A DNA stretch of 64,000 nt, from NCBI GenBank assembly GCA_000525675.1, contig CP002190.1, forward strand, positions 806,001 to 870,000, given 5' to 3'. The stretch comes from Bdellovibrio bacteriovorus W (lineage in GTDB: Bacteria > Bdellovibrionota > Bdellovibrionia > Bdellovibrionales > Bdellovibrionaceae). Position numbers and translations under genes: made by a program. Below the pieces are notes generated by a model. That model did no database searches, had not been told where the DNA came from, and saw only the letters and a list, made by a program, of their open reading frames with translations. Every line of letters begins with the position of its first letter. The first letter of the stretch is position 1. Shown here in pieces: positions 7,332 through 55,014 of the stretch.

Positions 7332-7338
7332 GGCGGGC

Positions 7339-12375: not shown

Positions 12376-12397
12376 TAGCGTTTTATAGAAATACTCT

Positions 12398-12580: not shown

Positions 12581-15500
12581 ATGACGAATATCTGGTATGT
12601 TTCTATTTATCGCATTGTAATTTCTTTTTTTACCCTGGCCACTCTTGGGTGCGGCTGGACCTCAGTATCCATCGAAAGTCGCCTGAATCCAAAGCCGCGG
12701 GAACGTGTTTTTGGATATGCCTATTTGTCTTCTCCGAACGTGCAAGCTCAGTCTTCAATAGCAGCCCTCTGTGCATCTTCTAATGAAATCCAGATTTTTG
12801 AATATAACCGTGTGAGAAAGCAGTACGACCAGATTGTCGCCACAGCAAAGTTAGATTCACAGGGGCGCTTTGAGTTTTTCAAAGATGAAATTACACCTTC
12901 TCTGAATGGGAACAGACAGCTTCTCATGCGAACCCAAATTTGCGACACAGCCTTGCTTCGCCTCGTGACTGATGAGGATCGCCAAGATATCAACACGAGC
13001 AGCACCTTGTTGAGTTGGATCACTCAGACAGGGTTGATAGAAGACCTGTCGTTGGAATCGAAAACTCAATTTACGGAGCTTCTCAAACAATTTGGTAAGC
13101 ACGATGATTTTCAAACCGCATATGATGCTTTGATAGCCTCAGACTTTTTGAAGAGTATGTATAGGCTGACATTTTCTGTGGATCCAGCATTGTTATTAGA
13201 CTCTTCTCCTTGGGTAGAAGTTAAAAGTATAAAGAAATCTCTTTCAGAAAATACGACCTCTACATTTTCTATTCAGGCTTTTCATTGGTTTCCAACTTAT
13301 GAATATTTCGTTGCGTGGACTTTGCCGGATGGAAGCGTGCAAAAAGGAAAAGATCTTTTTGAAGTCTCATGGACAAGTTCTAAGAACTCTCAGGGAATAA
13401 AAAATCTAACAGTAGAAGTTGGTGCCTACCTTAATGGAGGCTTTTCTTCGACTGGGGAAAGACAAATTTTACAAGTTCCTCTAGAAGTCCAAAATACTTT
13501 TCCGGCAGTTCCTTTGGTACTGTCTTTGGTGCAAAGTCATTTGGGTAATAACGAGGTAGATCTACCACAGGTAAACTTGAAAGTGCTTCAAGGTGTCGCG
13601 CAGGAAAAATGTGCAACGTTCTCTAAGTTTGCAATCACCGTGAACGATCCATTGCCTCCCACTCTTCTAACAGATTTTCAGTTCTCCTGTGACTCATTGG
13701 AGGAGCAAGTGATACCATGGCTTCTGCCAACGACGGGGACAACGGTTTTTCGATTGTGGTCAGTGGATAGTAGTGGAAATGTTAGCAGTGCTTCTTCGAA
13801 AGTCGAGGTTCACTATTCCCCAGATCATTTGGTTCCTCCTCGATTAGCGGTTAACTCTCCTGCAGATTTCTATCGTGCTAAGCACAGTGTGAACGTCAGT
13901 GGCACCTGTGAGCCAAATCTTTCTTTTTCAATAACAGGTCCAGGAATTCTAGAAGCACAAAACTCTGTTCAGTGTGGCCCGTCGGGAGAGTTTATACTTA
14001 CCCTGTTTTTTTCGGCAGGTGATGGAAATAAAGTCTTTAACTTTTATCAAAAAAAATCATCGGGCGTCTTTACCAGTTTTTCAAAAACGTATGTAAGAGA
14101 TACGACGCCGCCGTTGTTAACTCAAAACCTTGTCGCGCCTATTTCTTATTCTACTTTGGACTCTCACAGGTTCGGCGGGTCTTGTGAACCGACTCATTTG
14201 ATTGAGGTTAGTGGTGCTGCAACTGATAGCTTACCTTGTCCAGTCAATGGTACTTGGACCTATGACACTCCTTCAGTTTTCACTGATGGGAGCAGAAGTT
14301 TTAACTTTCGACAGATAGATGAAGCTGGTAATGAGGCCTCTGTTTCAGCCCAATGGATTCGTAAGACGAGTGAGCCGATATTTCTCATTACCTCTTCTTC
14401 GGACTTCTTAACGACTGGAGATAGCGTTACTTTTAAAGGGCAATGCGAAAGTGGTCTTAAGATTTTCGTAAATGCAAACCTGACTCCGATTTTGTGTAGC
14501 TCAGGAAGTTGGAGCTATACAGCGCATTCGACTATCGACGGAGTTTTGAATTATTCTTTTAAAGGTGTCGATCTTGCTTTAAATGAGAAGACCCTTTTGG
14601 GCTCTTGGACTCGAAGCACGACGGGGCCACGTCTGATATTAGCTCAGAATCAAGTTTCGTCCACAATATCGAATTTTGTAATTTCAGGTCAATGTTCTGC
14701 CGGAAGCTCTGGCTCTGATGGGTTGATTTCTTTGACCGGTGCACAGGTTGACTCTATTCCGTGCCCTAGCACGGATCAGAACTTGGCAACATGGCAATTT
14801 ACGGTGTCGCCAACTCTAGATGGTGTCTACCAATATACATTTTCTCTTAGTGATTACTTTGTTCCACCTCGTAAAGCGCAGGAAGTTTTCACGTTTGTTT
14901 TAGATCGCGAAGCACCAGTACTTACGAAGCTGATTTCTGTAGATGGAAGTCTTACAAGTCGCACGCCGAATATCGAAGTGAAGCTTGAGGCCTCCGATAC
15001 ATTAAGCCCTATTACCGCTATTTGTATCAAGACATCAGCAGATGTTCCCGAAGCGAGCGATAGCTGTTGGTACCCTCTGAATGGACCGCTGTTAGGAATG
15101 GTTCCGGCTCTTTCTGTTTCAGTACCAAAGTTTCCGATCAATCTCGGGGTGATTCCGTCTGAGTATAATGTGTATGCTTGGGTGCGCGACAGTTTAGGCA
15201 ATACGTCTCATAATCAAAAAATTCCCAATGTAGATTATTTCAAGATTCAATATGCGCCGGTGCCACCACCAATGGTTGGGTCGGTCATTGCATCTAATAA
15301 TAACGTGATGAACGGAGATATATCGGAAGCGACCTTTAGCGCGGGGCAGGGGATTTACATTCGCTGGAAGGCCGTAGGGCAATCTCTTAAACCTCTACCT
15401 GTTCAGATTTTCTTTTCTATGAATGACGAGGATTGGATAGAAGTCACTCCGAAGATTGCAAATGCCAATATCAATTGTCCTCAGCTAACAAGCTCAGGGA

Positions 15501-17842
15501 ATCTCGGAAAAGATGCAACCGGTTGTTACCATTGGAGCAGTGGGGCTCCTACTTCGAAATACTTTAAGATTCGAGTCGCTGTGGATAATATTTATGGAGC
15601 TGTGGCTTTCTCTAACAGCGCTCCATTAAATGCTGATGGGATAGGTTTGCTAGCAGGAAACTTAGAGTCGGGAGTGGGGGGCAGTGCGCTGGCAGCCACT
15701 TTTCTAACTGAGGACTCTATGGGGCGTCTTTATCTTAGAAATCAATCGCTGTTGGTAACAAACAGTGGAGTTATTTATTTGAGTGATTTCTTTAAAGGAA
15801 TTTTGAAGATAAACCCTTCCACGGGCGTTCTAGAAAGCTTTATTAAAAAGTCTTCTACTTGTCAGCGCAACTATCAGCAAGCCGTTTCAGTGAGTTCGGC
15901 CTGTGTTCTAAATCCTCAAGCGGTGGTTCTAGATCAAAACGAAGACCTTATTATTTTTGATCAGGATAGACTGTTAAAGGTGTCACTGGGACACACTCCG
16001 GCAACGATTAAGCTCATCGCTGGCGGCGGAGCCAATACCGCTCACTCGGTTACTGATCCATTTGATTTAAAGATTAACAATACAACACTCAATGTGACCA
16101 CGGCTCATACGATACTAAAAGTGCTTCCGAATAATGATATTCTTTTTACAGCGGATAGCTTAAATGAAGGCCATCTTATTAAAAATAATCGCAATCTTAG
16201 AATTCTTTCCCAATCAGGATCTGGATTGCGCATGGCTGATATTGGGGGCGTTGGATTTCATAATGCACCAGCCGCCAATATTACAGAATGTGGAATCGTT
16301 GATATTGGCTTTACTTATACACCCGGTGATGTCGAGGCTAGTGATTTGTTTGCTTATCTGCGCCTTCCAACAGCAAGTCCGGCAGGCTGTCCTGGAAATA
16401 CGGGGGACTCAGCCATTATTCGATCTTCCCGTCTGAGTCCAACGACCTATAAGGTTGATATATCACAGAAGGCTCATCCAACTGGGATAAGAGGGAGCTA
16501 CTCTTCAAGAAGTTTTGTTTCTTTAGGCGGAAAGGCCTATTCGATGACTCGACAGTATATTGACGAGTACCGAAATGGATCTTTCGTAAAAATTCTTGGC
16601 GATGCAAATATTGGTTTTTGTCCCGATAAGACCCCAGCCAATGAGTGCTCTGTAGACATCGACGATATCTATGTAACAAGTGCGGGGAGATTATACTTTT
16701 TAAGTCGTGGTGTGATTCGCATGGTGGACGCTGACGGCCTTGTGAATACAGTTTTTGGAAGTGGACTTGGTGGTGGTGACGGGGATTTGGCAATAAATGC
16801 TCGTTTTAAAAAGATCGGAATGTTTGATCGATCTGCAAATGGAAATGTCATGATCTATGACTCGTCTGTTTATACGATTCGAGAGTTTAAAGAGTTAGGT
16901 AATATAAATTCTATTATTGGTAATGGAAAGGGAGGAACACATATACTGGGTTCAGGCTCAGCCTCTTTGACCCAGCCACTTCCATTGTCTTCCACTTCGA
17001 ATGAAGTGGCCTATGCCTACTATCTTGATGATCACAATATCACCTTTGGCTCAACTCTTTCGCAGCTAGCTGTGTGGAATCGTCAGGCTGGATTTTCAAG
17101 TCTAGCTATCGGCACTAACTCAGGTGAAGACTATCGCTTTATCGAAGACACACCTGATAAGAATCGTGGTGATAAGATCCGCATTAATCCTCCAGCGGTT
17201 TCAGCCGGTAGGATCATCCCCGTCGGCGCTGGAGGCGGAAGGATATTAGCAGCGATGGAGGGGTTGTATCCGAGTTCCTTCACTAGAGACAGTTGGCTTG
17301 TCGAGATAAACTCTGGAAATAATTTTTCTATGCAGCCTTTAGTGCGAGCAGCGGGGACTGATAGAGGAAATGCCGCTACATTTTGTGCAGACGGAATTTC
17401 ATTGGTGGCTTGTGCGCCTTCAAACTCTCAAAGTGCGGTGGCTCGCTATTCTACCTCTCAGTATTGGGAAGAAGCAGGTCAGCACCACTGGTTTGTTTTG
17501 CACGTCTCTAATAGTAAAAGAATTATGGAGATTTCTGGAGAAAGTGGCGCAGTCATGAAAACACTGGTTACTCTGAATGATGAAGCCTCTGCTTTTACTA
17601 GGGTCCAATATAACTCCAAAGATTACGTGTTCTATTGCTCAAGGAATTCAAATAAGTTGGTGCGCGTGGAGTTGTTTCCAGATGGATCGACTTTTGAGAC
17701 GACACTGCCTTGGCCCGATGATTCCTTAGCCTGCACTGGTAAGTCATTAGTGTTTGATATTAAAAATGCCAAGCCTAGAATTTTATTCCAAATTGAGCAG
17801 TTCACGCTTCAAGGGGTTGCATCTCACGAGAAGATTTTTTAA
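12581..17842 (+). CDS. Giant secreted protein: Ig-like repeats plus propeller-like C-terminal half
   Basis: The 1,753-residue protein has an N-terminal hydrophobic segment ending TLGCG, a possible but non-canonical lipobox. About residues 440-780 hold four Ig-like units of roughly 90 residues. Each begins with G(T/S/Q)C and has a second cysteine about 25-30 residues later (GTCEPNLS, GSCEPTHL, GQCESGLK, GQCSAGSS), suggesting one disulphide per unit. From about 1020 onward, repeats such as GVIYLSDFFKGILKINP and GVIRMVDADGLVNTVFGSG resemble NHL-type beta-propeller blades. Such proteins are typically displayed on or beyond the outer membrane for adhesion; that role is inferred. The ribosome site is weak. 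It converges with the next gene, sharing a TTAA at the stops. Confidence 0.85.
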   Translation: MTNIWYVSIYRIVISFFTLATLGCGWTSVSIESRLNPKPRERVFGYAYLSSPNVQAQSSIAALCASSNEIQIFEYNRVRKQYDQIVATAKLDSQGRFEFFKDEITPSLNGNRQLLMRTQICDTALLRLVTDEDRQDINTSSTLLSWITQTGLIEDLSLESKTQFTELLKQFGKHDDFQTAYDALIASDFLKSMYRLTFSVDPALLLDSSPWVEVKSIKKSLSENTTSTFSIQAFHWFPTYEYFVAWTLPDGSVQKGKDLFEVSWTSSKNSQGIKNLTVEVGAYLNGGFSSTGERQILQVPLEVQNTFPAVPLVLSLVQSHLGNNEVDLPQVNLKVLQGVAQEKCATFSKFAITVNDPLPPTLLTDFQFSCDSLEEQVIPWLLPTTGTTVFRLWSVDSSGNVSSASSKVEVHYSPDHLVPPRLAVNSPADFYRAKHSVNVSGTCEPNLSFSITGPGILEAQNSVQCGPSGEFILTLFFSAGDGNKVFNFYQKKSSGVFTSFSKTYVRDTTPPLLTQNLVAPISYSTLDSHRFGGSCEPTHLIEVSGAATDSLPCPVNGTWTYDTPSVFTDGSRSFNFRQIDEAGNEASVSAQWIRKTSEPIFLITSSSDFLTTGDSVTFKGQCESGLKIFVNANLTPILCSSGSWSYTAHSTIDGVLNYSFKGVDLALNEKTLLGSWTRSTTGPRLILAQNQVSSTISNFVISGQCSAGSSGSDGLISLTGAQVDSIPCPSTDQNLATWQFTVSPTLDGVYQYTFSLSDYFVPPRKAQEVFTFVLDREAPVLTKLISVDGSLTSRTPNIEVKLEASDTLSPITAICIKTSADVPEASDSCWYPLNGPLLGMVPALSVSVPKFPINLGVIPSEYNVYAWVRDSLGNTSHNQKIPNVDYFKIQYAPVPPPMVGSVIASNNNVMNGDISEATFSAGQGIYIRWKAVGQSLKPLPVQIFFSMNDEDWIEVTPKIANANINCPQLTSSGNLGKDATGCYHWSSGAPTSKYFKIRVAVDNIYGAVAFSNSAPLNADGIGLLAGNLESGVGGSALAATFLTEDSMGRLYLRNQSLLVTNSGVIYLSDFFKGILKINPSTGVLESFIKKSSTCQRNYQQAVSVSSACVLNPQAVVLDQNEDLIIFDQDRLLKVSLGHTPATIKLIAGGGANTAHSVTDPFDLKINNTTLNVTTAHTILKVLPNNDILFTADSLNEGHLIKNNRNLRILSQSGSGLRMADIGGVGFHNAPAANITECGIVDIGFTYTPGDVEASDLFAYLRLPTASPAGCPGNTGDSAIIRSSRLSPTTYKVDISQKAHPTGIRGSYSSRSFVSLGGKAYSMTRQYIDEYRNGSFVKILGDANIGFCPDKTPANECSVDIDDIYVTSAGRLYFLSRGVIRMVDADGLVNTVFGSGLGGGDGDLAINARFKKIGMFDRSANGNVMIYDSSVYTIREFKELGNINSIIGNGKGGTHILGSGSASLTQPLPLSSTSNEVAYAYYLDDHNITFGSTLSQLAVWNRQAGFSSLAIGTNSGEDYRFIEDTPDKNRGDKIRINPPAVSAGRIIPVGAGGGRILAAMEGLYPSSFTRDSWLVEINSGNNFSMQPLVRAAGTDRGNAATFCADGISLVACAPSNSQSAVARYSTSQYWEEAGQHHWFVLHVSNSKRIMEISGESGAVMKTLVTLNDEASAFTRVQYNSKDYVFYCSRNSNKLVRVELFPDGSTFETTLPWPDDSLACTGKSLVFDIKNAKPRILFQIEQFTLQGVASHEKIF

Positions 17843-40918: not shown

Positions 40919-40994
40919 CAGTTTGTAGCAAAGAAGATGGTCCAAATTTGCTACCTCAATATAGATCGCCTTATTTATAGCCGATAATATAAGT

Positions 40995-41324
40995 ATGAGT
41001 ATGAGTATGTTTTTATTTAGATTTCGGCTTAATTGCGTTTCATGTTTGAGGTTAGGAGTAGTCCTAACTTTTTTCTCATTTTTATTATCACTCACAGGTT
41101 GTTCTTTTGAAGCCAGCATTCAATCTTTGAGTGGAAAAGATCCGACCCCGTCGTTTCAACCTACGGGTACTGAAATCGTTTCCGGAAGTAATCAAAACTC
41201 TCGAACAACCCGTGGATATAAAGCTCAAGTTTCGGTGAGCCATCAGGGAGCGGAATCCTTTGGATTCACTACTAGAGGTCATAAGGTTTTTACAAATATT
41301 CAAGGAACACTCTTCAAGGAGTGA
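40995..41324 (+). CDS. Small lipoprotein at the head of the fibre operon
   Basis: The 109-residue protein has a lipoprotein signal with lipobox LTGC (VVLTFFSFLLSLTGCSF). The mature part is Ser/Thr/Gln-rich with no recognised domain. Three ATG codons in a row (40995, 41001, 41007) could serve as start, and none has a clear ribosome site. It ends 5 bases before the fibre gene; its stop lies next to the fibre's AAGGAG site, so the two are coupled. A membrane anchor or assembly partner for the fibre is a reasonable inference. Confidence 0.75.
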   Translation: MSMSMFLFRFRLNCVSCLRLGVVLTFFSFLLSLTGCSFEASIQSLSGKDPTPSFQPTGTEIVSGSNQNSRTTRGYKAQVSVSHQGAESFGFTTRGHKVFTNIQGTLFKE

Positions 41325-41329
41325 GAGAC

Positions 41330-44300
41330 ATGAAAGTAGCACGTTTTATGGGTGTATCATTTCTGCAAAAAACTATTTTAGCATCGATGCTTTTGCCCGC
41401 GATGGCTCTTGCAAATGCAAGTCTTACTTACCATGGTCGAATCCTTGGGCATAACGATCAGCCTTTGGAAGGATCGAGCGTAAAGTTTCGAGTTCGTGTT
41501 TATAGTCCTCTTCCAAAGAAGTGTCTTCTTTATGAAGAAACTCGCACGATTGATATGAGTGGGTCTCAAGGCGTTTTTGTGATTGCAATCGGTGATCGCA
41601 ATGATATTCGCTCAGGGCTAGATCCCGACCTTGCTATCTCGAAAGTGTTCTCAAATAATCCTTTGGAAATTCCAGACTTAGTGTGTGAAGGTTCGGCTGT
41701 CTCTTACACTCCTCAAGCTCTGGATCACAGAATTTTAGATGTTGCTTACGACGATGGGTCTGGATGGGATGGACTGCCGGAAATGGCACTCAATCATGTT
41801 CCATTTTCAGTGAATGCGCATGATGCTCAAAATATTGGCGGTGTTCCTGCGGCTTCCGTTCTAAAAGTTTCTGGTGGAGCAGCTCCAGCATTGAGTCCTG
41901 CTGACTTTTCAGAATTTTTAAATTTACTCAGTGGTTCATCCACGCAATATGAAAAAGTAGGTCGCTTAAAAGGCTCAATAGTTCCGACTCTTGGGAATGG
42001 ACAGGTTCTAGGTTGGGATGCGGGCGGCTGGTCTGCAGTCACTCCTATGACTTCTTATAAAGAGACGGACCCAAGTGTTTCGTCTTTCGCTAAAGATGCA
42101 TTGCCAACTTGTGGTGCAAATTCATTTCTAAAAAACGATGGATCAGGGAATTTGACCTGTGTAACAGTTTCAGGTGCAAGTGGTGGAACCGTGACAAGTG
42201 TCATTGCCGGTTCTGGGTTAACGGGTGGAACTATTACGAACACAGGCACTCTAGCTGTAGATGGTGGTACTGGAGCTGGGCAAGTTCTTCAATTTACTAC
42301 GGCTGGTCAGTTGCCAGTGGTGGATGGCTCCAACGTCACAGGTGTGATCGCAAACGGTCTGAATACTACGAATTCCATAGCCAGTGGAAGTCACACTGTG
42401 ACGGGTAATCTATCTGTTGTAAACGGTAACATTGCTGTTTCAGGCGATGGTGTGAACAATGGAGTTGTTTCAGCTCCAGCGATGGGCACAAAGAATATAG
42501 GTGTTAATAAAATCTTTGTTCGTAGCCCTGCAGATCATGCAACGAATGGTATTAATATCACTGCACCTTTAACGAATGTCGTAGCGCCTTATACGCTCAG
42601 ACTGCCAACAGCTTTGCCAGCTAGTCCGATGGTTCTTAGCTCTGACGCTGCTGGAAATTTAACTTGGATGAGTCCTGCAACGGGTTCTGTGACATCGGTA
42701 GTAGCAGATCTTCCACTGAGTGTGGATGAAACAACGGTATCAAGTCCTCGAATTTCATTGAGGGCTGGTACAACAACCAACGATGTCATGACTTGGAATG
42801 GAACTAGTTGGATATCTGCACCACTTCCAGCAGGAAACGCGGGTACAGTGACGGGTGTTACTGGTGATAGCTATATTTCTGTGACCAATGGAACCACGAC
42901 TCCGGTATTGACTGCAAATATTGGTCAAGTCGCAGGAACACTGGCGGCTGGTAATGACAGTCGCTTCGCAGATTTAGACTCACGCTTAACAACGGCGGCA
43001 ACAAATATCGCAACGAACGCGACTGCTTTAAATACGAAGATCACAGCGCCTGCTACTTGTACAGCGGGACAGTTATTGACATTCAATGCAGTGGCCGACT
43101 GGCAGTGTGTGGATGTTCCAAGTTCCTCAGACAAATTACCTTTGGCCGGTGGAACAATGACGGGTGACCTGAACATGGGTAATAGGAATATTTCCAGTGT
43201 TCTTGGTATCGGTGTCGGAGTAGTTTCTACAAACACGCTTAAATTCAGTTCGACAACACCAACGACTCCTGAAGAGGGGGCTGTTTGGTATGATAACGGC
43301 GTTTTAAAATACCGTGATAGCTCATCGACAAATGTTTTGGGAGTTTCTGGCGCGGGTGTTCAATCAGTCACAGTGACTTCGCCATTGGCTGTGAACAACA
43401 CAGATCCCAATGCTCCGGCGATAAGTATTCAAGCGGCTAGTGGAAGCCAAAATGGTTATCTGACTTCAGGTGATTGGAATGCATTTAATAGTAAATTAGA
43501 TTCAACAACGACATTCGCTGGTGATGTCAGTGGCACATCAGGCGCCGTACAGGTCGATAAAATCAAAGGCATCCCTGTAACTCCAGCGACCTACGCCAAT
43601 GGCCAAGTGCTGCGGTACAACGCGGGAGAGTGGGTGAACTCTCTAATAAATATTAGCACAGATATAACTGGTACACTTTCTATTGCAAACGGTGGCACTG
43701 GCGCTACGACTCGGGACGGAGCATTGAATAATCTTCTTCCTACTCAGGTAGGTAACGCTAATAAACTTTTACAGACAAATGGAATGACGGTTACGTGGGT
43801 GGATGCACCTATTACTGGTATCACGGCTTTAACTGGTGATGTAACAACAGCAGCTGGTTCTGGTTCCGTGATGGCGACAATTCCTGATAGCACAATTACT
43901 TCTGCAAAAATTTTAGATGGAACAATCAATAGCGCGGATATGAACTTCGCCGGGGTGAATTCAGCAACATCAAGTATAGTGATGAAGGACTCAACGGGCG
44001 TATTTCATAGTTTTGCTTGCTCGACAACAGGACATGTTCCGACTTGGTCGGCGACAGGGTTTAACTGTCAAGATCCTCTTGCCGTCGGTGGGTTAAAGAA
44101 CTTTACGGACAGTCTTCATACAACAGCACCCAATGCGACTGTTCCTGTGGCTCAGCTAATGGCTTCGAATATAGCAACTCATGTAGATATCGCCCTGACT
44201 CCCAAGGGAGCTGGAAGTATTTCCGCTCAGGTTGCTGATAATACGGCTATTGGCGGTAACAAACGTGGAGAGAATGCCGTTGATTTTCAAATGGCTAGGA

Positions 44301-46102
44301 CTTCGGCAACGGCGGTAGCAAGTGGCTCAAGATCTTTTCTGGCTGGTGGTATGGAGAACACCGTTGTTGGCGATGACTCAGCTGTGATTGGTGGAGGAGG
44401 CAATACTATCAATGATATTCAGAGTGCAATTATTGGTGGTTATGGCAATACCACGACCAATGTAGCTGATGTTATCATTGGTGGTGATTCAAATAGGGCG
44501 ACAGGTGGGTACTCAGCGATTCTTGGGGGCACCAACAATACAGCAGGTGGCGGCCAATCGTTGGTCCTTGGTGGGAGTCGTAATGTAGCAAGTGGGACCA
44601 ACTCAATTGCAGCGGGATATTACGTTAATTCCGAGTCTTTAAATCAGGTAACTTTTGGAAGATATAATCTTTCTAAAGGTGGAGAAAACAGTGGTAATTG
44701 GATTGCGACGGATCCTCTCTTTGTTGTTGGAAATGGAGACAGTTCTGCTGCAAAGTCGAATGCGCTTATGATTTTAAAAAATGGCAATGTAGGTGTTGGG
44801 ATTACGTCTCCGGCGTATAAGTTGGATGTTGCAGGTGACGTCAATATCACCGGTAACTTTAAAATCAATGGAGTGAATCTCGCAGCGGGCGGTGGAACAG
44901 TTACAAGTGTCTCATCTGCAAATACAGATATTGCCATTGCCAATCCAACGACCACTCCGCAACTGACATTAAACTCTGGCACATCAGGTGGGGCAGGCGA
45001 TGCAAATAAAATTGCAAAGTTAAGTGCAACCGGTTTGTTAGCTCCTGCTATGATTCCCAATGCAGCGGGTGATGTGACGGGTGCTTATAGTGCCTTAACA
45101 GTTGAGAAAATCCGCGGAAGAAATATTGCCGCAACGGCACCGACAGCGGATCAAGTGTTACAGTGGGATGGAACGGCGAGTGCTTGGACTCCCAAAGCTC
45201 TACCTTCAGCTCCGGTGACAAGTGTTGCGGGAAAAACGGGTGCTGTTACTTTAAGTGTTTCCGATTTAAAGACGAGTGGCAATCTAATGCAATTCCCTAC
45301 GGACTGTTCAGCAACACAGACACTCACTTGGTCAAGTGGCTTAGATCGATACATATGTACCGATATCAATGTAATTTCGGGAGCAATAAATTACGTGCCT
45401 TACTATTCGACAGCAACCACGCTGTCCACAAACTCTCCGATCTCGGTGGGAAGTAGTGGTACGATTGTAGGTGTTAACACGACCCCAGTTTCAAATTCAG
45501 GGCTCGTGGTAAGTTCTAGCTGTGGTGGTGGTTCGGGACCTCATGATGGTGTTTATGGATATCCGAATTGCACGGCCATTTTAGCGAGGTCAAGCGGAGG
45601 GCCGACTACTGGTGTTCTTGGAGAGGGGTCGGGTGCTGCCGGTGTTGGTGTCGTAGGATATCACCCCGGAGATGGTATGGGTGGTTATTTTACATCAGCG
45701 ACGGGCATCGCGATGGCAACTGGAAAAGGGAACGTGGGGATCGGGCGTCTTCCTTCTAGTAATACAAAGCTTGATGTCGCTGGACAGATCGTATCGAAGT
45801 CTTCAGTCGTTACGACCAATAGTATCGACTGGGGGAAAGGAAACGCCGCCTCAACAAGTGTGGATTGCTCAACTGCGATCAACTTTGCAAATATGCGCGA
45901 CGGCGGTGCTTACACCCTTGCAGTGACAGGCACGGGAGATGCGATGTGCACTTTCTCGACGGCTACTACTGGAGATGATGCAGGCACAGTCGCTTATAGA
46001 TTTCAGCCAGCAAATGATAAAAGAACTCCCGGAACACATACGATCTATTCTTTTCAAAGAATTGCTAATACAGTTTATGTATCTTGGATTTCAGGATTCT
46101 AG
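41330..46102 (+). CDS. MAT-like trimeric fibre / adhesin
   Basis: The 1,590-residue protein has a signal peptide (MLLPAMALANA). The N-terminal module, SLTYHGRILGHNDQPLEGSSVKFRVRVYSP with CLLYEETRTIDM, resembles the anchor module of the Bdellovibrio mosaic adhesive trimer fibres, as I recall them. A long low-complexity shaft of GTVTSV, GSGLTGG, GNGQVL and LPLAGGTMTGDL units follows, as in phage tail fibres. A YadA-head-like block at about 1000-1105 (AIIGGYGN, VIIGGDSN, AILGGTNN) comes next, then LDVAGDVNITG and a C-terminal tip HTIYSFQRIANTVYVSWISGF. It is probably exported by Sec and trimeric. The start is the ATG at 41330 with AAGGAG 8 bases upstream; GTG 41321 is rejected. Confidence 0.85.
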   Translation: MKVARFMGVSFLQKTILASMLLPAMALANASLTYHGRILGHNDQPLEGSSVKFRVRVYSPLPKKCLLYEETRTIDMSGSQGVFVIAIGDRNDIRSGLDPDLAISKVFSNNPLEIPDLVCEGSAVSYTPQALDHRILDVAYDDGSGWDGLPEMALNHVPFSVNAHDAQNIGGVPAASVLKVSGGAAPALSPADFSEFLNLLSGSSTQYEKVGRLKGSIVPTLGNGQVLGWDAGGWSAVTPMTSYKETDPSVSSFAKDALPTCGANSFLKNDGSGNLTCVTVSGASGGTVTSVIAGSGLTGGTITNTGTLAVDGGTGAGQVLQFTTAGQLPVVDGSNVTGVIANGLNTTNSIASGSHTVTGNLSVVNGNIAVSGDGVNNGVVSAPAMGTKNIGVNKIFVRSPADHATNGINITAPLTNVVAPYTLRLPTALPASPMVLSSDAAGNLTWMSPATGSVTSVVADLPLSVDETTVSSPRISLRAGTTTNDVMTWNGTSWISAPLPAGNAGTVTGVTGDSYISVTNGTTTPVLTANIGQVAGTLAAGNDSRFADLDSRLTTAATNIATNATALNTKITAPATCTAGQLLTFNAVADWQCVDVPSSSDKLPLAGGTMTGDLNMGNRNISSVLGIGVGVVSTNTLKFSSTTPTTPEEGAVWYDNGVLKYRDSSSTNVLGVSGAGVQSVTVTSPLAVNNTDPNAPAISIQAASGSQNGYLTSGDWNAFNSKLDSTTTFAGDVSGTSGAVQVDKIKGIPVTPATYANGQVLRYNAGEWVNSLINISTDITGTLSIANGGTGATTRDGALNNLLPTQVGNANKLLQTNGMTVTWVDAPITGITALTGDVTTAAGSGSVMATIPDSTITSAKILDGTINSADMNFAGVNSATSSIVMKDSTGVFHSFACSTTGHVPTWSATGFNCQDPLAVGGLKNFTDSLHTTAPNATVPVAQLMASNIATHVDIALTPKGAGSISAQVADNTAIGGNKRGENAVDFQMARTSATAVASGSRSFLAGGMENTVVGDDSAVIGGGGNTINDIQSAIIGGYGNTTTNVADVIIGGDSNRATGGYSAILGGTNNTAGGGQSLVLGGSRNVASGTNSIAAGYYVNSESLNQVTFGRYNLSKGGENSGNWIATDPLFVVGNGDSSAAKSNALMILKNGNVGVGITSPAYKLDVAGDVNITGNFKINGVNLAAGGGTVTSVSSANTDIAIANPTTTPQLTLNSGTSGGAGDANKIAKLSATGLLAPAMIPNAAGDVTGAYSALTVEKIRGRNIAATAPTADQVLQWDGTASAWTPKALPSAPVTSVAGKTGAVTLSVSDLKTSGNLMQFPTDCSATQTLTWSSGLDRYICTDINVISGAINYVPYYSTATTLSTNSPISVGSSGTIVGVNTTPVSNSGLVVSSSCGGGSGPHDGVYGYPNCTAILARSSGGPTTGVLGEGSGAAGVGVVGYHPGDGMGGYFTSATGIAMATGKGNVGIGRLPSSNTKLDVAGQIVSKSSVVTTNSIDWGKGNAASTSVDCSTAINFANMRDGGAYTLAVTGTGDAMCTFSTATTGDDAGTVAYRFQPANDKRTPGTHTIYSFQRIANTVYVSWISGF

Positions 46103-46123
46103 AAACTTAAGGGGACGTTTTTG

Positions 46124-49100
46124 ATGAAGAAGAAGGAAGTAGGAGATAAAGAATTATCTTCATTGTCACGAAGAGAACTTTTACTCTCAGCAGGGCGTTT
46201 AAGTGCGTTGGGAATTGTGACTTCAATTCTTTCTCCTCACGAGAAGGCGTTAGCCTTTCGAAACACTCTTGGCTTTTGGGGTTCTAAAAAACAAGCAGGT
46301 TTGTTTCATTGGGGAGCCCCATTTGGATCTATGATTAAGCCAACTCAGATCGATCCTAAAGAACAGTGGAGCCAGATATTCACGGCTCCTTTTAATACTT
46401 CCAAATCATTTTATGCAATTAAAACTGACGGTACTTTGTGGAGCTGGGGAGAGAATCAGTACGGACAATTGGGACTAGGGCATCGGAATGATATTTTGTC
46501 TCCAGTGCAAGTCGGTTCAAAAAAGTGGAAGACATTAGCACTTTCAGGATATGGAGCATCTGGCATTCAAGAAGATGGTAGTCTCTGGGCGTGGGGCGCT
46601 TCCGATGAGGGCGAAAATGGAGTGTTCTACGACTCTCCGACAAAAATTTTAAGTGAGTTTGCAGAAGGTTGGAAAGAGATTTGGGCCGATAGTATTGCTA
46701 CGATTGCAATAAAAACGGATGGTAGTTTGTGGATGTGGGGCTCCGGTACTTCAACCATTAGCGTGCCTCACATACCTAAGCAACTTAGTGATCAAAAGTG
46801 GTTAAAGGTTGGGGGTAATAGGGCTTCCAGCTCATTCCTCTTGGCGTTGCATGAAAACGGAAGTCTTTGGGGAATCGGATATAATAACGACGGCGTTTTT
46901 GGATCACAAAATTATATTTACAATTTGACGAAAATTAATGACGGACCTTGGGTCAACATGTCTGCTGGCGCAGGACATGTTGTCGCGCAAAAGGCTGATG
47001 GTACGTTGTGGAGCTGGGGACGAAATAATCGAGGTCAGTTAGGGGATGGTACTTACAAGGCGTCATCGTCGCCAGTGCAAGTTTCTTACACAGGTACAAT
47101 TAGAGAATTGGTTTCTACCGCAGAAAGAACCTTTGTCTTGAGTCAAGAAGGTGAGGTTTGGGGCTGGGGGAGTAACGCTGGTGCTGGATTAGGTGTTTCC
47201 CATATTGCGCCAACCCATGTTCCTAGCACAAAACCTTGGAAGATGCTGGCAGGACTTTCAACAACCACGATGGCGATTGCTCAAGATGGAACTCTTTGGG
47301 GTTGGGGATATAGTTCTTCCGGCGGACTGGGGCTTAGTTCGACATATGTTTTTGATCAAACCTTAGTCAGTGATGCGAAGTGGAAGTATGTTTCAGCTTC
47401 AAATTTAGTCTACGGTATTCAGACAGATGGTTCTTTATGGACATGGGGCTTCGGTAGCAACGGTGAGTTGGGAGATGGCGAGAAAACTATCCGGTCAAGT
47501 CCGGTGCAGATTTCCAGTGAGTCATGGAGGCTAACTTCTGTGGGGAATTACGTCGGCGTTGGCATTAAGGAAGATAATACTTTATGGGTTACAGGGGGGA
47601 ATTCTGCGGGGTCGCTTGGCTTAGGAGATACTGTTTCGAGGTCTCATTTAACACAGTTAGGTGGTGCTGAGTGGCGCACTGTCGATGTCGGCAGAGCTGG
47701 TTCGATAAATACCCATGTTCTTGCAATTAAAACGGATGGGACACTTTGGGCTTGGGGTTATAACCTCAACGGGCAAATAGGTATAGGAGTAACAGGGGCA
47801 GGCAGTAATAAAAGTTCTCCAGTACAAATTGGGAACGCTACAGATTGGGTCAAAGTACAAGGTGGTTCTACTTTTTCAGTGGCCTTAAAATCGGATAATA
47901 CACTATGGAGATGGGGGCTAGTAGGATTAGAAAATTCCAATTCTCCTGTTCAAGTTGCTGGTAGTTGGACGGATGTATCGTGTTCAGAGGCATCCGTTTT
48001 GGCAAAAAAAACAGACGGTAGTATTTGGGGGTTTGGATCTAATGCGTACGGATCTTTAGGTAATGAAAGTCTTTATTTAAATATTTCACCAAATTCACCC
48101 GTAAAAGTCCATGACGGCGAGGCTGGGCTGCTGTTCGATTGCCAAAAAGATTTAAGTTTTTTCATTAAGACGGATGGAAGCCTTTGGGCAATGGGTGATA
48201 ACTCTGCGGGGAATATGGGGATTAAGTACAATACTCCTTCGCAAACTATAGAGGGAAGTGGGTGGAAAAGTTTAAAAGCGAATCCATCAAGAGCCTTTGT
48301 GGTAAAATCTGATGGAACTCTTTGGCTTTGGGGGCACACGGGGTCATCGGGATTTTTTGCCAGCATTAATAATACTTATAGATATTTAATACAATCATCC
48401 AAAACAGAGACCGATTGGGGATCCATTGAAAACTTGAGTGAGCATATCGTTTGTGTAAAGACGGATGGTACTCGATGGCTTTGGGGAGAAGGAACGGTGG
48501 GGCAGTTGGGCAATGGCTCGTTTAGTAACTCGAATTCGCCCATTCAGCTTCAAGGAAGTGGTTGGAAGGAAGTTTCTTGTGGCAATAAATTCACCGTAGC
48601 TTTGAAGTCAGACGGGAGCCTATGGAGTTGGGGCAGTAATAGCTCGAGGTCGCTGGGGCATACTTACACGGAACCTCAATTGATCGATTCAAGTAATTGG
48701 CAAGCTGTAGCAGTCGCCTATCGCGGTGGCGCGGGAGTAAGAGTTGATGGAACTCTCTGGGTATGGGGAACGGAAGTGAATACTTCTGGTTTTCTTGGTG
48801 GCGCCGGTCGGACTAAAATGACTCGAATTGGAGCAGAAACAGACTGGCATTCGGTGCAAATCGGAGGATCTTGGACGGGCCCTGTGGCCATTTCTCAGAA
48901 GAGTGATCAAAGCCTTTGGTCTTGGGGATGGGCATCAAGCTCGGGTCTTGCTGGAGTGGCTAATGGAGGCAATCGCACAAGTTCTCCGGTGCTTATTAGT
49001 GGCCGCTGGGAAAAGTATTCCGTAAATGAGAATCACGCCATAGCAGTCAGTACGGACGGTACCCTCTGGGCCTGGGGAGTGAACAGCACTTGTCAATTAG

Positions 49101-49360
49101 GAGGAGGAGCTGTCAATGTCACTCAGTCCCAACCGATTCAGGTAAGTACTGACAAGTGGCAGTCTATCTCTGCTGGGAACTTGGCAACCATGGCAATTAA
49201 ATCGGATGGAACTTTATGGGCTTGGGGGTCTGGGATGAGTGGACGTACAGGTGTTGGTTCATCAGCCACCTTGTCGTCGCCTACTCAGATTGGTGCAGAT
49301 AGAAATTGGGATAAAGTGAGTCTTGGATATTTCATTAGCTTGGGAATTCGTAAAAAATAA
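46124..49360 (+). CDS. Tat-exported RCC1-repeat protein, first copy
   Basis: The 1,078-residue protein has an N-terminal twin-arginine signal (LSRRELLLSAGRLSALGIVTSIL). After a conserved linker [20 protein letters not shown] it carries 20 RCC1-type repeats of about 50 residues, each with the core (K/Q)xDGxLWxWGxN, filling the protein to its end (GIRKK). RCC1 repeats fold as seven-bladed propellers, so 20 repeats suggest about three. The Tat pathway would export it folded. The ATG at 46124 has AAGGGG 9 bases upstream; TTG 46121 is rejected. It starts 21 bases after the fibre stop. A ligand cannot be inferred. Confidence 0.88.
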   Translation: MKKKEVGDKELSSLSRRELLLSAGRLSALGIVTSILSPHEKALAFRNTLGFWGSKKQAGLFHWGAPFGSMIKPTQIDPKEQWSQIFTAPFNTSKSFYAIKTDGTLWSWGENQYGQLGLGHRNDILSPVQVGSKKWKTLALSGYGASGIQEDGSLWAWGASDEGENGVFYDSPTKILSEFAEGWKEIWADSIATIAIKTDGSLWMWGSGTSTISVPHIPKQLSDQKWLKVGGNRASSSFLLALHENGSLWGIGYNNDGVFGSQNYIYNLTKINDGPWVNMSAGAGHVVAQKADGTLWSWGRNNRGQLGDGTYKASSSPVQVSYTGTIRELVSTAERTFVLSQEGEVWGWGSNAGAGLGVSHIAPTHVPSTKPWKMLAGLSTTTMAIAQDGTLWGWGYSSSGGLGLSSTYVFDQTLVSDAKWKYVSASNLVYGIQTDGSLWTWGFGSNGELGDGEKTIRSSPVQISSESWRLTSVGNYVGVGIKEDNTLWVTGGNSAGSLGLGDTVSRSHLTQLGGAEWRTVDVGRAGSINTHVLAIKTDGTLWAWGYNLNGQIGIGVTGAGSNKSSPVQIGNATDWVKVQGGSTFSVALKSDNTLWRWGLVGLENSNSPVQVAGSWTDVSCSEASVLAKKTDGSIWGFGSNAYGSLGNESLYLNISPNSPVKVHDGEAGLLFDCQKDLSFFIKTDGSLWAMGDNSAGNMGIKYNTPSQTIEGSGWKSLKANPSRAFVVKSDGTLWLWGHTGSSGFFASINNTYRYLIQSSKTETDWGSIENLSEHIVCVKTDGTRWLWGEGTVGQLGNGSFSNSNSPIQLQGSGWKEVSCGNKFTVALKSDGSLWSWGSNSSRSLGHTYTEPQLIDSSNWQAVAVAYRGGAGVRVDGTLWVWGTEVNTSGFLGGAGRTKMTRIGAETDWHSVQIGGSWTGPVAISQKSDQSLWSWGWASSSGLAGVANGGNRTSSPVLISGRWEKYSVNENHAIAVSTDGTLWAWGVNSTCQLGGGAVNVTQSQPIQVSTDKWQSISAGNLATMAIKSDGTLWAWGSGMSGRTGVGSSATLSSPTQIGADRNWDKVSLGYFISLGIRKK

Positions 49361-49520
49361 TGCAACAGTTCTGATATCGTTTTTTAGTTAATTATTACTG
49401 AGGTCGCTATCCTCTCTCTTAGGGATTATTTCGTATTTCTGTCCTATTCTTCCTGGATATTATTTAATATAGTTTTTAGTGTTTTACTGAATCTGTCGAA
49501 CCGCAAGGGTGTTAGTCTTT

Positions 49521-52500
49521 ATGAAAAAGAAGCAGCTTATAAGTAATGACGAGATTGTGTCCTCAGATCGTCGAGATTTTCTTTTGTCAGCAGGACGCCT
49601 CGGCGCACTTGGAATAGCTGTGTCTATTCTCTCACCAAAAGACAAAACCCTAGCCTTTCGAAACACTTTAGGTTTTTGGAAGTCAAAAACTCAAGTGGGA
49701 TTATTCCATTGGGGCGCGCCAATCTCGGCTACTATGATAAAATCGACACTGATTGATCCTAATGATGAGTGGCATGAGGTTTTTCTTTCGACAGTGAGTA
49801 TTGCGGTAAAGTCTTCATATGCGATCAAGACGGATGGAACTTTATGGGTTTGGGGAGAAAATAAATTTGGACAGTTGGGATTGGGGCATCAAACCGATAT
49901 ATCCTCCCCCATTCAAATGGGAACCGCTAAATGGAAAAGTATAGGCGTCTCTCAACGCGGAGCCTCTGGCATTCAAGAAAATGGCAGTCTTTGGGCTTGG
50001 GGAGCTTCCGCATTTGGCGAGAATGGAATTTTTTATGACAGACCTCACCAGCTTCCCGATGGAGCTGGCGAGGGGTGGAAAGATGTTTGGGCAGATTATT
50101 TTTCAACTTTTGCCATAAAAACAGATGGTACGTTTTGGGCGTGGGGATCTGGAACTATTGTTATTCAAAGTCAGCATATACCTATCCAATTGAATGCGCA
50201 AAAATGGAAAAAAGTTACGGGAGGTAGAACCTCAACTCCTTTTATATTGGTATTGAATGAAGACGGAAGTCTTTGGGGAATGGGTATCAATAGCGATGGT
50301 ATTTTCGGGGCCGAATCCTCCTCTTCGACTCTGACTAAGATTAGTAATGGCCCTTGGATTGATGTTTCAGCGGGTGGAAAACATATTCTCGCTTTGAAAA
50401 ATGATGGGACCTTGTGGGCTTGGGGAAATAACAGTTATGGGCAGTTAGGTGATGGAACCTATGAGTCCAAATCTTCACCGGTTCAAGTCTCATTCTCCGG
50501 TAGTATTAAGAGTTTTATTTCCTCTGAAAATAGGAATTTCATTCTGACAAATAGTGGTGAGATTTGGGGTTGGGGACATAATGCTTATAACTCATTGGGT
50601 GTTGAGTATTTTTCTCCAGTATTAGTTCCGAGTGCTCGTCCTTGGAAGGTCATTGCAGGAAATTCAAGTACGACGATGGCAATAGCAACAGATGGAACCT
50701 TATGGGGTTGGGGACTTAGTAACAATGGTGGGGTGCTTGGGAAAAGTTCTACCTCTGTTTACAGTCAAACAATGATAAGCGACGCAAAATGGAAAGACAT
50801 CGCCGTAAGTCACACTGCATATGGAATTCAGACTGATGGCAGTTTGTGGACTTGGGGGTGGGGAAGCAATGGGGAACTGGGCGATGGAACAAAAGCACAT
50901 CGTTCGAGTCCTGTTCAGATATCGTCTGAGTCTTGGAGGTCCGTATCTGTTGGCACTTATGCGAACGCTGCCATTAAAGATGATAATACTTTATGGGTTA
51001 GTGGAGCGAACTCATATGGGACGTTAGGGGTGGGAGATACCAACAGTAGATCTCACCTAACACAAGTGGGTGGAGCTGAATGGCGCAGTGTGGATGTTTG
51101 TAAATCCAATACCACTTCAGCCCATATGATCGCTCTGAAAACGGATGGTTCATTGTGGACTTGGGGTAATAATATGTCGGGCCAAATGGGTGATGGCACT
51201 ACTACTAATAAAAGTTCGCCCATTCAAGTGGGGAGCGCTACCGATTGGGTAAAAGTATTAGCTGGATCGACATATTCTTTGGCGCTGAAGTCAGACAATA
51301 CATTGTGGTTTATAGGGAGTGTCGCATTAACAAGTTCTAGCACGTTTTCCAAAATTCTCGGGGAATGGACTGATATTTCTGTAGCCGCAGATAGCTTCTT
51401 AGCAAAAAAATCCGACGGGAGTATTTGGGGGGTTGGGAAGAACAACATGGGCGCCATGGGCACTACGAACCTTTACTCGACAGTTTCTATTTTTTCTCCA
51501 GTAAAAGTTCATGATGCAGAAGTTGGTTTAAAGTTTCACTGTCAGGCGGAAACAAATTTTTTTCTTAAAGCTGATGGTAGTCTATGGGGCACAGGTAGTA
51601 ATACAGAGGGAAATTTAGGGTTAAGGTACAACGAGCCGCTTAAAGTTGTTGATGGTGTCGGATGGAGGAGTGTTTCTGCATCGAGCTCTCGATCTGTCGG
51701 AGTTAAAGCCAATGGCACTTTATGGCTGTGGGGACACACTGGTCAAAATGATATTGCTCTGCCGCGAAACTCGATGCGACACCTACTACAGATTCGCCCA
51801 GAGACTGATTGGTCAAGCGTCGAAGATATTTATGAACATATAGTTTGTTTGAAAACAGATGGTAGTCGTTGGCTGTGGGGGAGTAATCTTTTTGGAGAGC
51901 TAGGAAATGGCTCTTTTGAAAACTTAAGTTCTCCTATTCAAATATCAGGAGGAGGCTGGAGTAAAATATCCAGTGGAAGGAATTTTACTCTTGCAATTAA
52001 ATCGAATGGGACCCTTTGGAGCTGGGGAGATAATACTTATGGCTCTTTGGGACAGTTACAGAAAACTCCGCTCTTAATAGATTCTAATGTTTGGAAGCAA
52101 GTTTTTTTATCATACCGCAACGGAGCCGGAGTTAGATCTAATGGAACTTTGTGGGTGTGGGGATCTGATATGAATGGAGCTGGAGCTCTTGGAGGCCCAG
52201 ACCGTGCAAGAATAAGGCAACTCGGTACACAGTCGGATTGGTCGTCAGTGCAGCTTGGTGGTGATATTAATAGACCGATTGGAGTAGCTCTTAAAGAAGA
52301 CAAGACTTTGTGGGCTTGGGGGTCGGGTGGAAGCCTTGGACAGATGGGTTTGGGCACGATAAGCAAGTCGAGCTCTCCAATGCAGATCTCTGGCTCTTGG
52401 AAAAACTTTTCAGTGGGCAAAGAACATGTTCTCGCGTTGGCTACCGATGGGACGTTATGGAGTTGGGGGGCGAATTCCTCTCGACAATTAGGTGGTGGGT

Positions 52501-52751
52501 TGACCTCTGATAAACATTCTCTACCAAATCAAGTGAACGCGCAAAACTGGAGGCAAGTTTTTGCTTCGAATGACTCATCAATGGCTATTCATGCAGAAGG
52601 TTCTTTGTGGGCTTGGGGATCTGGATTAAGTGGAGTGACGGGTTTGGGAACCTCTATGGTTTTAAGTTCTCCTACACAAATCGGATCAGATAAAAACTGG
52701 TTCACGATGGCTTTAGGTTATACTCACAGCTTAGGGATTAGAAAAAAGTAA
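49521..52751 (+). CDS. Tat-exported RCC1-repeat protein, second copy
   Basis: The 1,076-residue protein is a paralogue of the preceding one, aligned end to end: a Tat signal ([24 protein letters not shown]), the same linker [20 protein letters not shown], and 20 RCC1 repeats in the same register, including shared irregular repeats such as TLWLWGHTG and (T/S)RWLWG. This indicates tandem duplication and divergence. The ATG at 49521 has AAGGG 11 bases upstream; GTG 49509 is less likely. A 160-base gap without a terminator separates the copies. The stop TAA is followed at once by the ATG of a glycosyltransferase gene in the same frame. Confidence 0.88.
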
Positions 52752-53771
52752 ATGGAAGAAAAAAGTAAAGCCGATTTAGTAAACAGCCTTTTGGACGCCC
52801 AGCTTGCCGCAGGGTTACGGGGTGATTTTGAAGAAGGTTGGCGACTGGCCAATGAATTAGAAAAAATTGCTCCCGAAGATCCACGTCCTAAATTTAATCG
52901 CGCGTGGTATGAAATGATGCGCGGAAATCTTTTGAAGGGATTTGAGCTGCTCTCTCACGGTCGTTGGATTCGTGCCTTTGGCGACCAACCCTTGCCAACA
53001 AATAAATCCATTCTTCACCCTCAAGACTCGGTCCAAAATAAGCATATTTTATTTTGTTCAGAGGGTGGTCTGGGAGATGAAATCATAAATTTTAGATTTA
53101 CGAAAGTATTAGCTGACCTAGGTGCTAAGGTGACAGTCTCTTGTGATCCAGGTTTGGTTTCGGTGTTTGCGCGCGCTCCTTGGATATCGGCGGTGGTTCA
53201 TCATCAAGCGGCCCCTTTTGTCTATCATGATCATTGGATTCCAGGAATGAGTGCCGGTCATATCCTAGGAGTTGAGTATCAGAATCTTTCGAACCAAGCT
53301 TACTTAAGTGTCGATCCAGAATACGATTTGAAGTGGCGCCAGTATTTTCAAAATTTCCCCAAGGACAAGAAGCCTCGGATTGGATTGCGGTTTAAAGGTA
53401 ACTCGCAATTTGAGCACGAACAATTTAGAAAATTCCCAGAGCATCTTCTTGTGAGTGCGGTCGGAGAGATTCCTTGGGTGAGTCTGCAACTTGGGGAGAC
53501 AGATCTTGCCATCGAAAATTGGGAAGACACCTTGGCGGTTATTAATAATTTGGATTTGATCATTACCTCTTGCACCAGTGTAGCGCACGCAGCTGCTGCT
53601 TTAGGTAAGGAGACATGGGTTGTTGTGCCTGTTTTGCCCTACTATGTATGGGCGATGCCCGGCGATAAGTCGCCGTGGTATGAAAGTGTCACTCTTTTTC
53701 GTCAAAAAACATTCGGTCAGTGGGAAGATGTATTTACGTCCATTCATTTAGCCCTTAAGAGCAAATTCTAA
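52752..53771 (+). CDS. TPR-type glycosyltransferase (GT-B, heptosyltransferase-like)
   Basis: The 339-residue cytoplasmic protein has an N-terminal TPR-like helical part (EEGWRLANELEKIAPEDPRPKFNRAWYEMMRGN) and a GT-B-like domain. The features are LFCSEGGLGDEIINFRFTKVL and the C-terminal donor-site block SCTSVAHAAAALGKETWVVVP plus DKSPWYESVTLFRQ, typical of TPR-linked GT9-like enzymes often found with surface or flagellin glycosylation. Donor and acceptor are unknown. It starts directly after the RCC1 stop (TAA ATG), so it depends on upstream translation. It converges with a paralogue, with 4 bases between stops. Confidence 0.8.
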   Translation: MEEKSKADLVNSLLDAQLAAGLRGDFEEGWRLANELEKIAPEDPRPKFNRAWYEMMRGNLLKGFELLSHGRWIRAFGDQPLPTNKSILHPQDSVQNKHILFCSEGGLGDEIINFRFTKVLADLGAKVTVSCDPGLVSVFARAPWISAVVHHQAAPFVYHDHWIPGMSAGHILGVEYQNLSNQAYLSVDPEYDLKWRQYFQNFPKDKKPRIGLRFKGNSQFEHEQFRKFPEHLLVSAVGEIPWVSLQLGETDLAIENWEDTLAVINNLDLIITSCTSVAHAAAALGKETWVVVPVLPYYVWAMPGDKSPWYESVTLFRQKTFGQWEDVFTSIHLALKSKF

Positions 53772-53775: not shown

Positions 53776-55014
53776 CTATAACGTGAGTATGAAGCTATTA
53801 AGATCTTCATGAAGATTTTTGATAGCAGCACTCCAGTCGTTAATCTCTGTCTTGCGATAAATTCTTAATTGATCGTACCATGGAGAGTCTTTACGATTGG
53901 GCTCTAACCATCTCCAGCAAGAATCAAAGCGTGAGAGCATAAAGGTAGGCTTTCCTAAAGCTGCAGCCACGTGGCAAGTCGACGTATCAATCGTCACAAC
54001 GGCATCAAGTTCTTGAATAATAGCTGCCGTATCTTCAAATGAGTTGGTCAGAGGAATTTGTTTAAGTTTTTCAAACTCAAGCCCCGCAATACTAGCAAAG
54101 TCTTTTTGTAAACTCACAGAGACCCATTTAGAGTCGTTGATCAATTCCTTAAGATCTGTAGGTAAAACACGACGGCGCGAAGAAGTCTTTTCTTCTTCGG
54201 GGTGCTGGCTGCTCGAACCTGACCAAACAAATCCGACCTTCTTTTGAATTGTGGGAAGGCGTTCATTCATAATCTTTTGAGCCAGAGCTTTTCTTTCAGA
54301 AGAGACAGAAAGATAGCCTTTAGCAAAGGGAATAGAGTCAATTTCTGTTTTAAAAACACGCGGTAGGCTCATCAAGGAAATTTGTGCTTTTAAATTAAAG
54401 GCGTTTAACTGAGGATTTGTCTTGAGGGTTCTTTTGCCTTTAGAGTCGGTTGCGGGAATTAGTCCCTCTTCGTAGGTAAAAACATAATCTGAAATATCGG
54501 ATGATATATATAGACTTTTTAAAGCTTGAGGGACAACGAAGACCGTCTTCCAGTTTCTCTTGCGGATCAGGGGTAAGTATCGCGCAAACTGTACGGAGTC
54601 TCCTAAGCCCTGCTCAGAGCATACCAGAATAAACTCGCCCTGTCCGTCTTCACCGGTCCATAAAGGGATCGTGCCTTCGAGGTGGGCAATATTGTCCATT
54701 TTATGAAATCTGGATTCCAAAAGATTGAAGCCTTGAATCCAATTTCCTTTTCGAATCAGTAAATGGGCAAGAAGATCTCTTGCTTCATGAAAGTCAGGAT
54801 GGAGTTGGAGAGCTTGCTCGCAATAATTTTGCGTTTCTGCGAAACGCGCTTGAGCGTTCATAAGTATAGCTAAGTTTAGAAGAATCTGCGGATGGGGTCC
54901 AAAGCGGGTGTTGGCTTCCTCCATGATTTTTTGCGCATCATCGTAGCGATCCTGGAGAAAAAAGAAACCTCCCAAAGACATCATTCCTTCAAGATTCAGA
55001 TGGTCATAACTCAT
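53776..55014 (-). CDS. TPR-type glycosyltransferase, convergent paralogue
   Basis: The 412-residue protein has three or four TPR units (MMSLGGFFFLQDRYDDAQKIMEEANTRFGPHPQ, LNLAILMNAQARFAETQNYCEQALQLHPDFHEA) and then the same GT-B domain as its neighbour: LVCSEQGLGDSVQFARYLPLI, VDTSTCH-like block TIDTSTCHVAAALGKPTFML, and KDSPWYDQLRIYRK. AGGAG lies before the ATG. It is read towards the first glycosyltransferase and ends 4 bases from it, without a terminator. The pair probably serves the same surface structure. Confidence 0.8.
   Translation of the reverse strand: MSYDHLNLEGMMSLGGFFFLQDRYDDAQKIMEEANTRFGPHPQILLNLAILMNAQARFAETQNYCEQALQLHPDFHEARDLLAHLLIRKGNWIQGFNLLESRFHKMDNIAHLEGTIPLWTGEDGQGEFILVCSEQGLGDSVQFARYLPLIRKRNWKTVFVVPQALKSLYISSDISDYVFTYEEGLIPATDSKGKRTLKTNPQLNAFNLKAQISLMSLPRVFKTEIDSIPFAKGYLSVSSERKALAQKIMNERLPTIQKKVGFVWSGSSSQHPEEEKTSSRRRVLPTDLKELINDSKWVSVSLQKDFASIAGLEFEKLKQIPLTNSFEDTAAIIQELDAVVTIDTSTCHVAAALGKPTFMLSRFDSCWRWLEPNRKDSPWYDQLRIYRKTEINDWSAAIKNLHEDLNSFILTL

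Follow-up and report, generated by a model that had tools for sequence, protein, structure and literature searches.

A putative surface-recognition cassette was analyzed in the genome of Bdellovibrio bacteriovorus W (GCA_000525675.1, contig CP002190.1). The analyzed window is a stretch of 64,000 nucleotides (positions 806,001 to 870,000 of the forward strand), and all coordinates refer to it unless another locus is named. The cassette occupies positions 40995-53771 and consists of five co-directional open reading frames (ORFs), encoding a lipoprotein, a MAT fibre, two RCC1-repeat proteins with signals for twin-arginine translocation (Tat), herein referred to as RCC1-A and RCC1-B, and a glycosyltransferase (GT) (Table 1). 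The intergenic gaps are 5, 21, 160, and 0 bases long. No terminator-like site of the + strand was found inside any of these gaps; across the region such sites occur at chance level (21 vs. 16.2 expected). A sequence-only reading of the window had listed the same five genes in a single direction, with the same gaps and no internal terminator, and the ORF coordinates agree with it. Its assignment of the fibre to the Bdellovibrio prey-binding trimer family, its description of two RCC1 propellers with Tat signals, and its label for the last gene are all borne out by the results given below.

Table 1. Features of the cassette and its flanks (window coordinates).
Feature	Position	Strand	Characteristics
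FliA (sigma-28)-like attack-phase promoter (candidate)	40959-40987	+	TATAG-N16-CCGATA, 8 nt before lipoprotein ATG
Lipoprotein	40995-41324	+	Small; lipobox LTGC; C-terminal twofold GY/HKV motif
MAT fibre, non-S74 kind	41330-46102	+	ATG start; 1,590 aa; Sec signal
RCC1-A	46124-49360	+	ATG start; 1,078 aa; Tat signal; RCC1 repeats
RCC1-B	49521-52751	+	ATG start; 1,076 aa; Tat signal; 58% identical to RCC1-A
GT, TPR + GT9/TibC-like GT-B glycosyltransferase	52752-53771	+	339 aa; assigned by predicted fold
Distant GT paralogue, TPR + Glyco_transf_9, convergent to cassette	53776-55014	-	Pfam TPR, Glyco_transf_9

The strongest link in the cassette is that between RCC1 and GT, the GT being much more closely associated with RCC1 than with MAT fibres. 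In total, 194 contigs with a relative of the GT were found in IMG/VR. The best 80 of these contigs form 33 GT clusters at 75% identity, and an RCC1 gene was found within 6 kb of the GT in 32 of the 33 clusters and within 300 bp in 28. RCC1 is the ORF adjoining the viral GT in 28 cases vs. 10.4 expected, a number not reached in any of 5,000 within-locus shuffles. Almost all the close RCC1 genes (65/66) lie upstream of the GT on the same strand. RCC1 is otherwise rare in phage records (34/50,697). Four phage records, from S-SRM01, BUCT-ZZ01, and AG-345-E08, contain most of the GT, and all four also contain RCC1. The viral RCC1-GT pairs are neighboured by tail or fibre-like genes, sulfotransferase-GT fusions, GT25 genes, and methyltransferases; accessory GT25 and sulfotransferase genes are common to the phage and Bdellovibrionota loci. 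Arrays of RCC1 and GT genes were additionally observed in contigs of metagenome-assembled genomes (MAGs) labelled Nomurabacteria, Phycisphaerales, and Patescibacteria (L095, L096, and L099), which may be phage contigs or misbinned.

A survey of 66 family genomes showed a patchy distribution: the GT occurs in 6 of the 66 and in 4 of the 24 genomes of the genus. The fibre, GT, and Tat-RCC1 genes are contiguous in five other loci of Bdellovibrionota (L032, L034, L033, L035, and L093), belonging to the genomes G010, G025, G052, and G015 and to one named MAG locus (L093). The homologues in these relatives are linked, which favours the sequence-only reading, as it had named unlinked homologues as a refutation. 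The gene order, for which it proposed a comparison across genomes, varies. It is fibre-GT-methyltransferase-RCC1 in G010, fibre-methyltransferase-GT-RCC1 in G025, fibre-GT-RCC1 in G052 and G015, fibre-RCC1-GT in L093, and fibre-RCC1-RCC1-GT in the window. The GT can thus precede or follow RCC1, and many loci have methyltransferase genes in between. The lipoprotein, missing from several loci, is an optional part, and a fixed five-gene system is therefore not supported. In the locus L092, a GT, an FkbM-like gene, a second GT, a Tat-RCC1, and a sulfotransferase gene are located between two fibre genes.

RCC1 proteins with Tat signals were found only in the six GT-bearing genomes of the 66. In the other 19 RCC1-bearing genomes, the inspected RCC1 proteins (matches under 1e-20) are either Sec-exported, mostly lipoproteins, or truncated, and have cysteine-rich blades. 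The co-occurrence of GT and Tat-RCC1 across genomes is significant (Fisher's test, 1e-8, with relatedness ignored). In the genome G034, the GT has a GT25 gene alongside, and four Tat-RCC1s are encoded elsewhere, unlinked to it; the co-occurrence is therefore not due to linkage only.

Both RCC1-A and RCC1-B match the Pfam families RCC1 and WD40_RLD above the cut-off. Each contains 17-19 clear blade motifs at a spacing of roughly 50 residues, and thus each probably forms three 7-bladed propellers. The Tat-type signals are SRRELL and DRRDFL in the window pair, and TatC is encoded in the genome; linked RCC1 homologues at other loci carry RR-x-(F/L) signals. The Tat N-terminus was also tried as a search query (as part of a chimeric query) and proved uninformative, the sequence being too variable. 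Tat-RCC1s contain 0.45 cysteines per 100 residues (n=15) and viral RCC1s 0.29 (n=83), vs. 3.6 in Sec RCC1s (n=34). Blades are of the CWG type in the family's Sec RCC1s and of the LWxWG type in Tat and viral RCC1s. Tat-RCC1s score against viral RCC1s approximately as they do against each other and far above the Sec RCC1s of their own family. For example, RCC1-B reaches 500 bits against phage RCC1s and 190 bits against Sec RCC1s, and the best match of a Sec RCC1 is another Sec RCC1 in 34 of 34 cases. The Tat-RCC1s therefore belong with the phage type. Their low cysteine content would fit folding in the reducing cytoplasm and agrees with the Tat signals.

No significant sequence match for the GT was found in Pfam, PDB, or NCBIfam. 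Its structure was modelled with AlphaFold2 from an alignment of 52 sequences (predicted local distance difference test score, pLDDT, 94.8; predicted template modelling score, pTM, 0.92). In the model, residues 91-339 resemble heptosyltransferases of the GT-B fold, including Veillonella GT9 3tov (Z 17.6), RfaF (16.4), WaaC (15.6), and TibC (15.5); matches of this type have Z scores of 15.4-17.6 over 220-235 residues. For residues 6-73, the match is to the TPR domain of human O-GlcNAc transferase (65 residues, Z 10.8). The predicted fold thus makes the GT a GT9-like enzyme with an N-terminal TPR, although it is not a member of the Pfam GT9 family. The directly abutting convergent paralogue, which was not mentioned in the sequence-only reading, does match Glyco_transf_9; used as a control query in viral contigs, it returned no relatives.

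The Gly and Asp (D109) of the GDE motif in the GT are invariant in all 52 aligned sequences. From the start of the structural alignment (model residue 97 = WaaC residue 1), D109 would fall on the catalytic Asp13 of WaaC. D109 may likewise be the counterpart of the catalytic Asp (D110) of TibC/AAH. The four-cysteine iron finger of TibC is absent: only two cysteines are conserved throughout the six most similar sequences, and no cysteine is shared by all 52. Therefore, the GT was not filed as a bacterial autotransporter heptosyltransferase.

Among known systems, the TibC/AAH heptosyltransferases (PMC4358343, PDB 4RAP) share with the GT the GT-B fold, a gene beside that for an exported surface protein, and a presumed action before export. 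In the GT, however, a TPR replaces the N-terminal beta barrel, the iron finger is lacking, the identity is about 10%, and an RCC1 propeller, of the Tat type or from phages, takes the place of the Sec autotransporter as partner. The ADP-heptose transferases WaaC and RfaF of GT9 are structurally the closest matches to the catalytic domain, including the putative position of GDE at the catalytic Asp of WaaC, but differ in lacking the TPR domain and in gene neighbourhood. O-GlcNAc transferase (TPR + GT41) also joins a TPR of the same fold to a GT-B domain; compared with it, the GT has a GT9-type catalytic domain and a far shorter TPR.

By its N-terminal module, on which the sequence-only reading had let its MAT assignment depend, the fibre is a true MAT protein. 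This module, at about residues 19-181, matches the NCBIfam domain Bdello_MAT_N (NF053851) with 110 bits vs. the curated cut-off of 60, as do all 12 of its aligned relatives. The fibre further has a Sec signal, a long repeat shaft, and a C-terminal beta tip. Shaft residues ~1015-1175 show a weak match to YadA/UspA1-type heads (E about 0.02). For the predicted beta tip (pLDDT 81), weak matches (Z 6-8) were obtained to tailspikes and to a phage capsid spike, and a Foldseek search with its fold returned nothing below E 0.001. With the MAT fibres of PMC10769870, the fibre shares the N-terminal domain, Sec export, the repeat shaft, and a non-S74 beta tip. Unlike them, it is encoded beside Tat-RCC1 propellers and a GT, a neighbourhood that the passages of that paper considered here do not mention. 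Two side observations concern fibres elsewhere: in the locus L033 (G052, 5243-13788), the MAT fibre is present as two overlapping ORFs of 1,499 and 1,349 aa, which may reflect a frameshift, a sequencing error, or a split gene, and in the locus L076 (G018, 27-8866), a Sec lipoprotein with RCC1 repeats is encoded directly 5' of a MAT fibre in the absence of a GT.

The cassette lipoprotein belongs to a family of small lipoproteins that carry a twofold GYKV-type motif at the C-terminus, and their genes often overlap the start of a MAT gene. The other members are those at L020 1510-1809, L021 1495-1776, L032 7588-7926, and L034 793-1080; an orphan copy in L020 has its own strong FliA-like promoter. 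Of the 30 MAT genes sampled, only 4 are preceded by a homologue, and a role as a general MAT fibre anchor was therefore rejected. An anchor, or alternatively a chaperone, for a subset of MAT fibres is possible. Structure prediction of lipoprotein and fibre as a single chain was dropped, as their reading frames differ.

The consensus of attack-phase FliA promoters is TTAAG-N16-CCGATA (PMC3627812). The candidate site of the cassette matches it at 3 of 5 positions in the -35 box and 6 of 6 in the -10 box. Requiring at least 9 of 11 matches at 7-9 nt before the start, FliA-like sites precede 8 of 12 fibre-unit starts, vs. 3.6% of 366 ORFs (site 4-12 nt away). Two of the four negatives have poorly placed starts. 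Exact TAAA-N14-16-GCCGATAA promoters are near background (5 sites vs. 3 in the control), and GCCGATAA-N6-8-ATG is above the control (14 vs. 2). No FliA-like site was found in either RCC1 gap or elsewhere inside the cassette. These observations support expression of the cassette in attack phase from one promoter. Elsewhere in the window (12563-17842), an exact GCCGATAA site lies 11 bases ahead of the start of a protein of 1,753 aa, whose repeats are weakly adhesin-like and which may be another attack-phase surface protein.

Taken together, we consider it fairly probable that the cassette combines a MAT unit (lipoprotein and fibre) with a propeller-glycosylation unit shared with phages (RCC1 and TPR-GT9) and serves in surface recognition. 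In attack phase, the FliA-like promoter would turn the cassette genes on. The RCC1 proteins would fold in the cytoplasm, as suggested by the Tat signals and scarce cysteines, and the TPR-GT, judging from linkage and fold, would bind the folded propellers and add a sugar, to which the methyl- or sulfotransferases of some relatives may attach further groups. The finished propellers would be exported by Tat and may be brought to the surface by type II secretion, the secretin GspD (642 bits) being encoded in the genome together with TatC. From MAT biology, the Sec-exported fibre and the propellers would then act in prey contact. The export logic of the sequence-only reading, with folding in the cytoplasm before Tat export, is supported.

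Several points weigh against this interpretation. Glycosylation of RCC1 by the GT, the surface location of the propellers, and the role in prey recognition are all steps that we infer. Tat delivers proteins to the periplasm only, so that a meeting of propellers and fibre outside the cell, as proposed in the sequence-only reading, would need a presumed further step. Moreover, the substrate of most GT9 enzymes is lipopolysaccharide and not a protein. The GT of G034 has no RCC1 neighbour, the GT of the phage-like contig L100 stands without RCC1, and in L036 a Sec RCC1 with cysteines lies near a distant GT homologue. The link between fibre and propellers is based on six loci. Finally, the -35 box of the window promoter is weak, and the promoter test included start codons chosen by hand in some cases.

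It is also conceivable, although improbable, that the MAT fibre is the substrate of the GT, in the manner of the Sec-exported adhesins glycosylated by TibC and HMW1C, and that the RCC1 proteins are passengers. Known cytoplasmic adhesin transferases act prior to Sec export, TibC is a fold neighbour of the GT, and the fibre directly adjoins the GT in several relatives. However, MAT genes are found in all 24 genomes of the genus (3-30 copies per genome) and the GT in only four, the GT of phages and other MAGs is accompanied by RCC1 without MAT, and G034 has the GT and Tat-RCC1s with no fibre adjoining the GT. We assign a similarly low probability to synthesis or modification of a surface polysaccharide by the GT and the linked methyltransferases, with unmodified RCC1 propellers binding it as lectins. 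This would be in line with the usual substrate of GT9 enzymes, with the GT25, FkbM, and sulfotransferase neighbours typical of glycan synthesis, and with the frequent role of propellers as ligand binders, but GT and RCC1 also stay together in phages, which build no cell envelope, an OGT-like TPR is characteristic of enzymes with protein substrates, and Tat export and few cysteines fit cytoplasmic processing of the propeller. Least likely is that Tat is needed only on account of propeller folding being too rapid for Sec, the GT and fibre being separate neighbours in a surface-gene hotspot: patchy distribution, variable order, and the dispersed Tat-RCC1s of G034 fit this, but fast folding alone does not force Tat, given that the family also has RCC1s with cysteine-rich blades that are exported by Sec, and the pairing of GT with RCC1 is repeated in many phages.

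Phage RCC1 proteins, such as those of phAPEC6 and S-SRM01, have no function on record and have been guessed to organise DNA (PMC7247149). In PHROGs, they (phrog_4219, 7220, and 16766) are assigned to the category DNA, RNA and nucleotide metabolism. They share RCC1 repeats with the window proteins, and those from GT-bearing phages are likewise cysteine-poor and adjoin a GT, but they lack a Tat signal. Their gene position beside the GT argues against a DNA-organising role, and the PHROGs filing is probably wrong, since the GT-linked ones precede a glycosyltransferase in tail-fibre gene regions. This constant position before TPR-GT9 points to a role in host recognition. No paper joining phage RCC1, tail fibre, and glycosyltransferase was found in the literature collection that was searched.

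In the GT tree, the GTs of Bdellovibrionota form two well-supported clades, each adjoining a viral clade. The best tree requires two changes, and a single Bdellovibrio clade is not rejected (approximately unbiased test, p 0.11). If Bdellovibrionota did capture the GT twice, the Tat signal would have been gained twice. Tentatively, and with somewhat less than an even chance, the RCC1 propellers encoded with TPR-GT may represent an undescribed class of glycosylated phage-tail recognition proteins, produced in the cytoplasm with a dedicated transferase. Predators would have captured this module, possibly twice, and turned it to surface use through a Tat signal, by which folding and glycosylation would still come before export. 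The data suggest that a predatory bacterium acquired a surface-recognition kit of phages and equipped it with a signal for the export of folded proteins. If so, the relatives of Bdellovibrio would offer an example of cytoplasmic glycosylation of a folded protein that subsequently leaves by Tat, and RCC1 propellers would join the MAT fibres as a second type of surface recognition protein.

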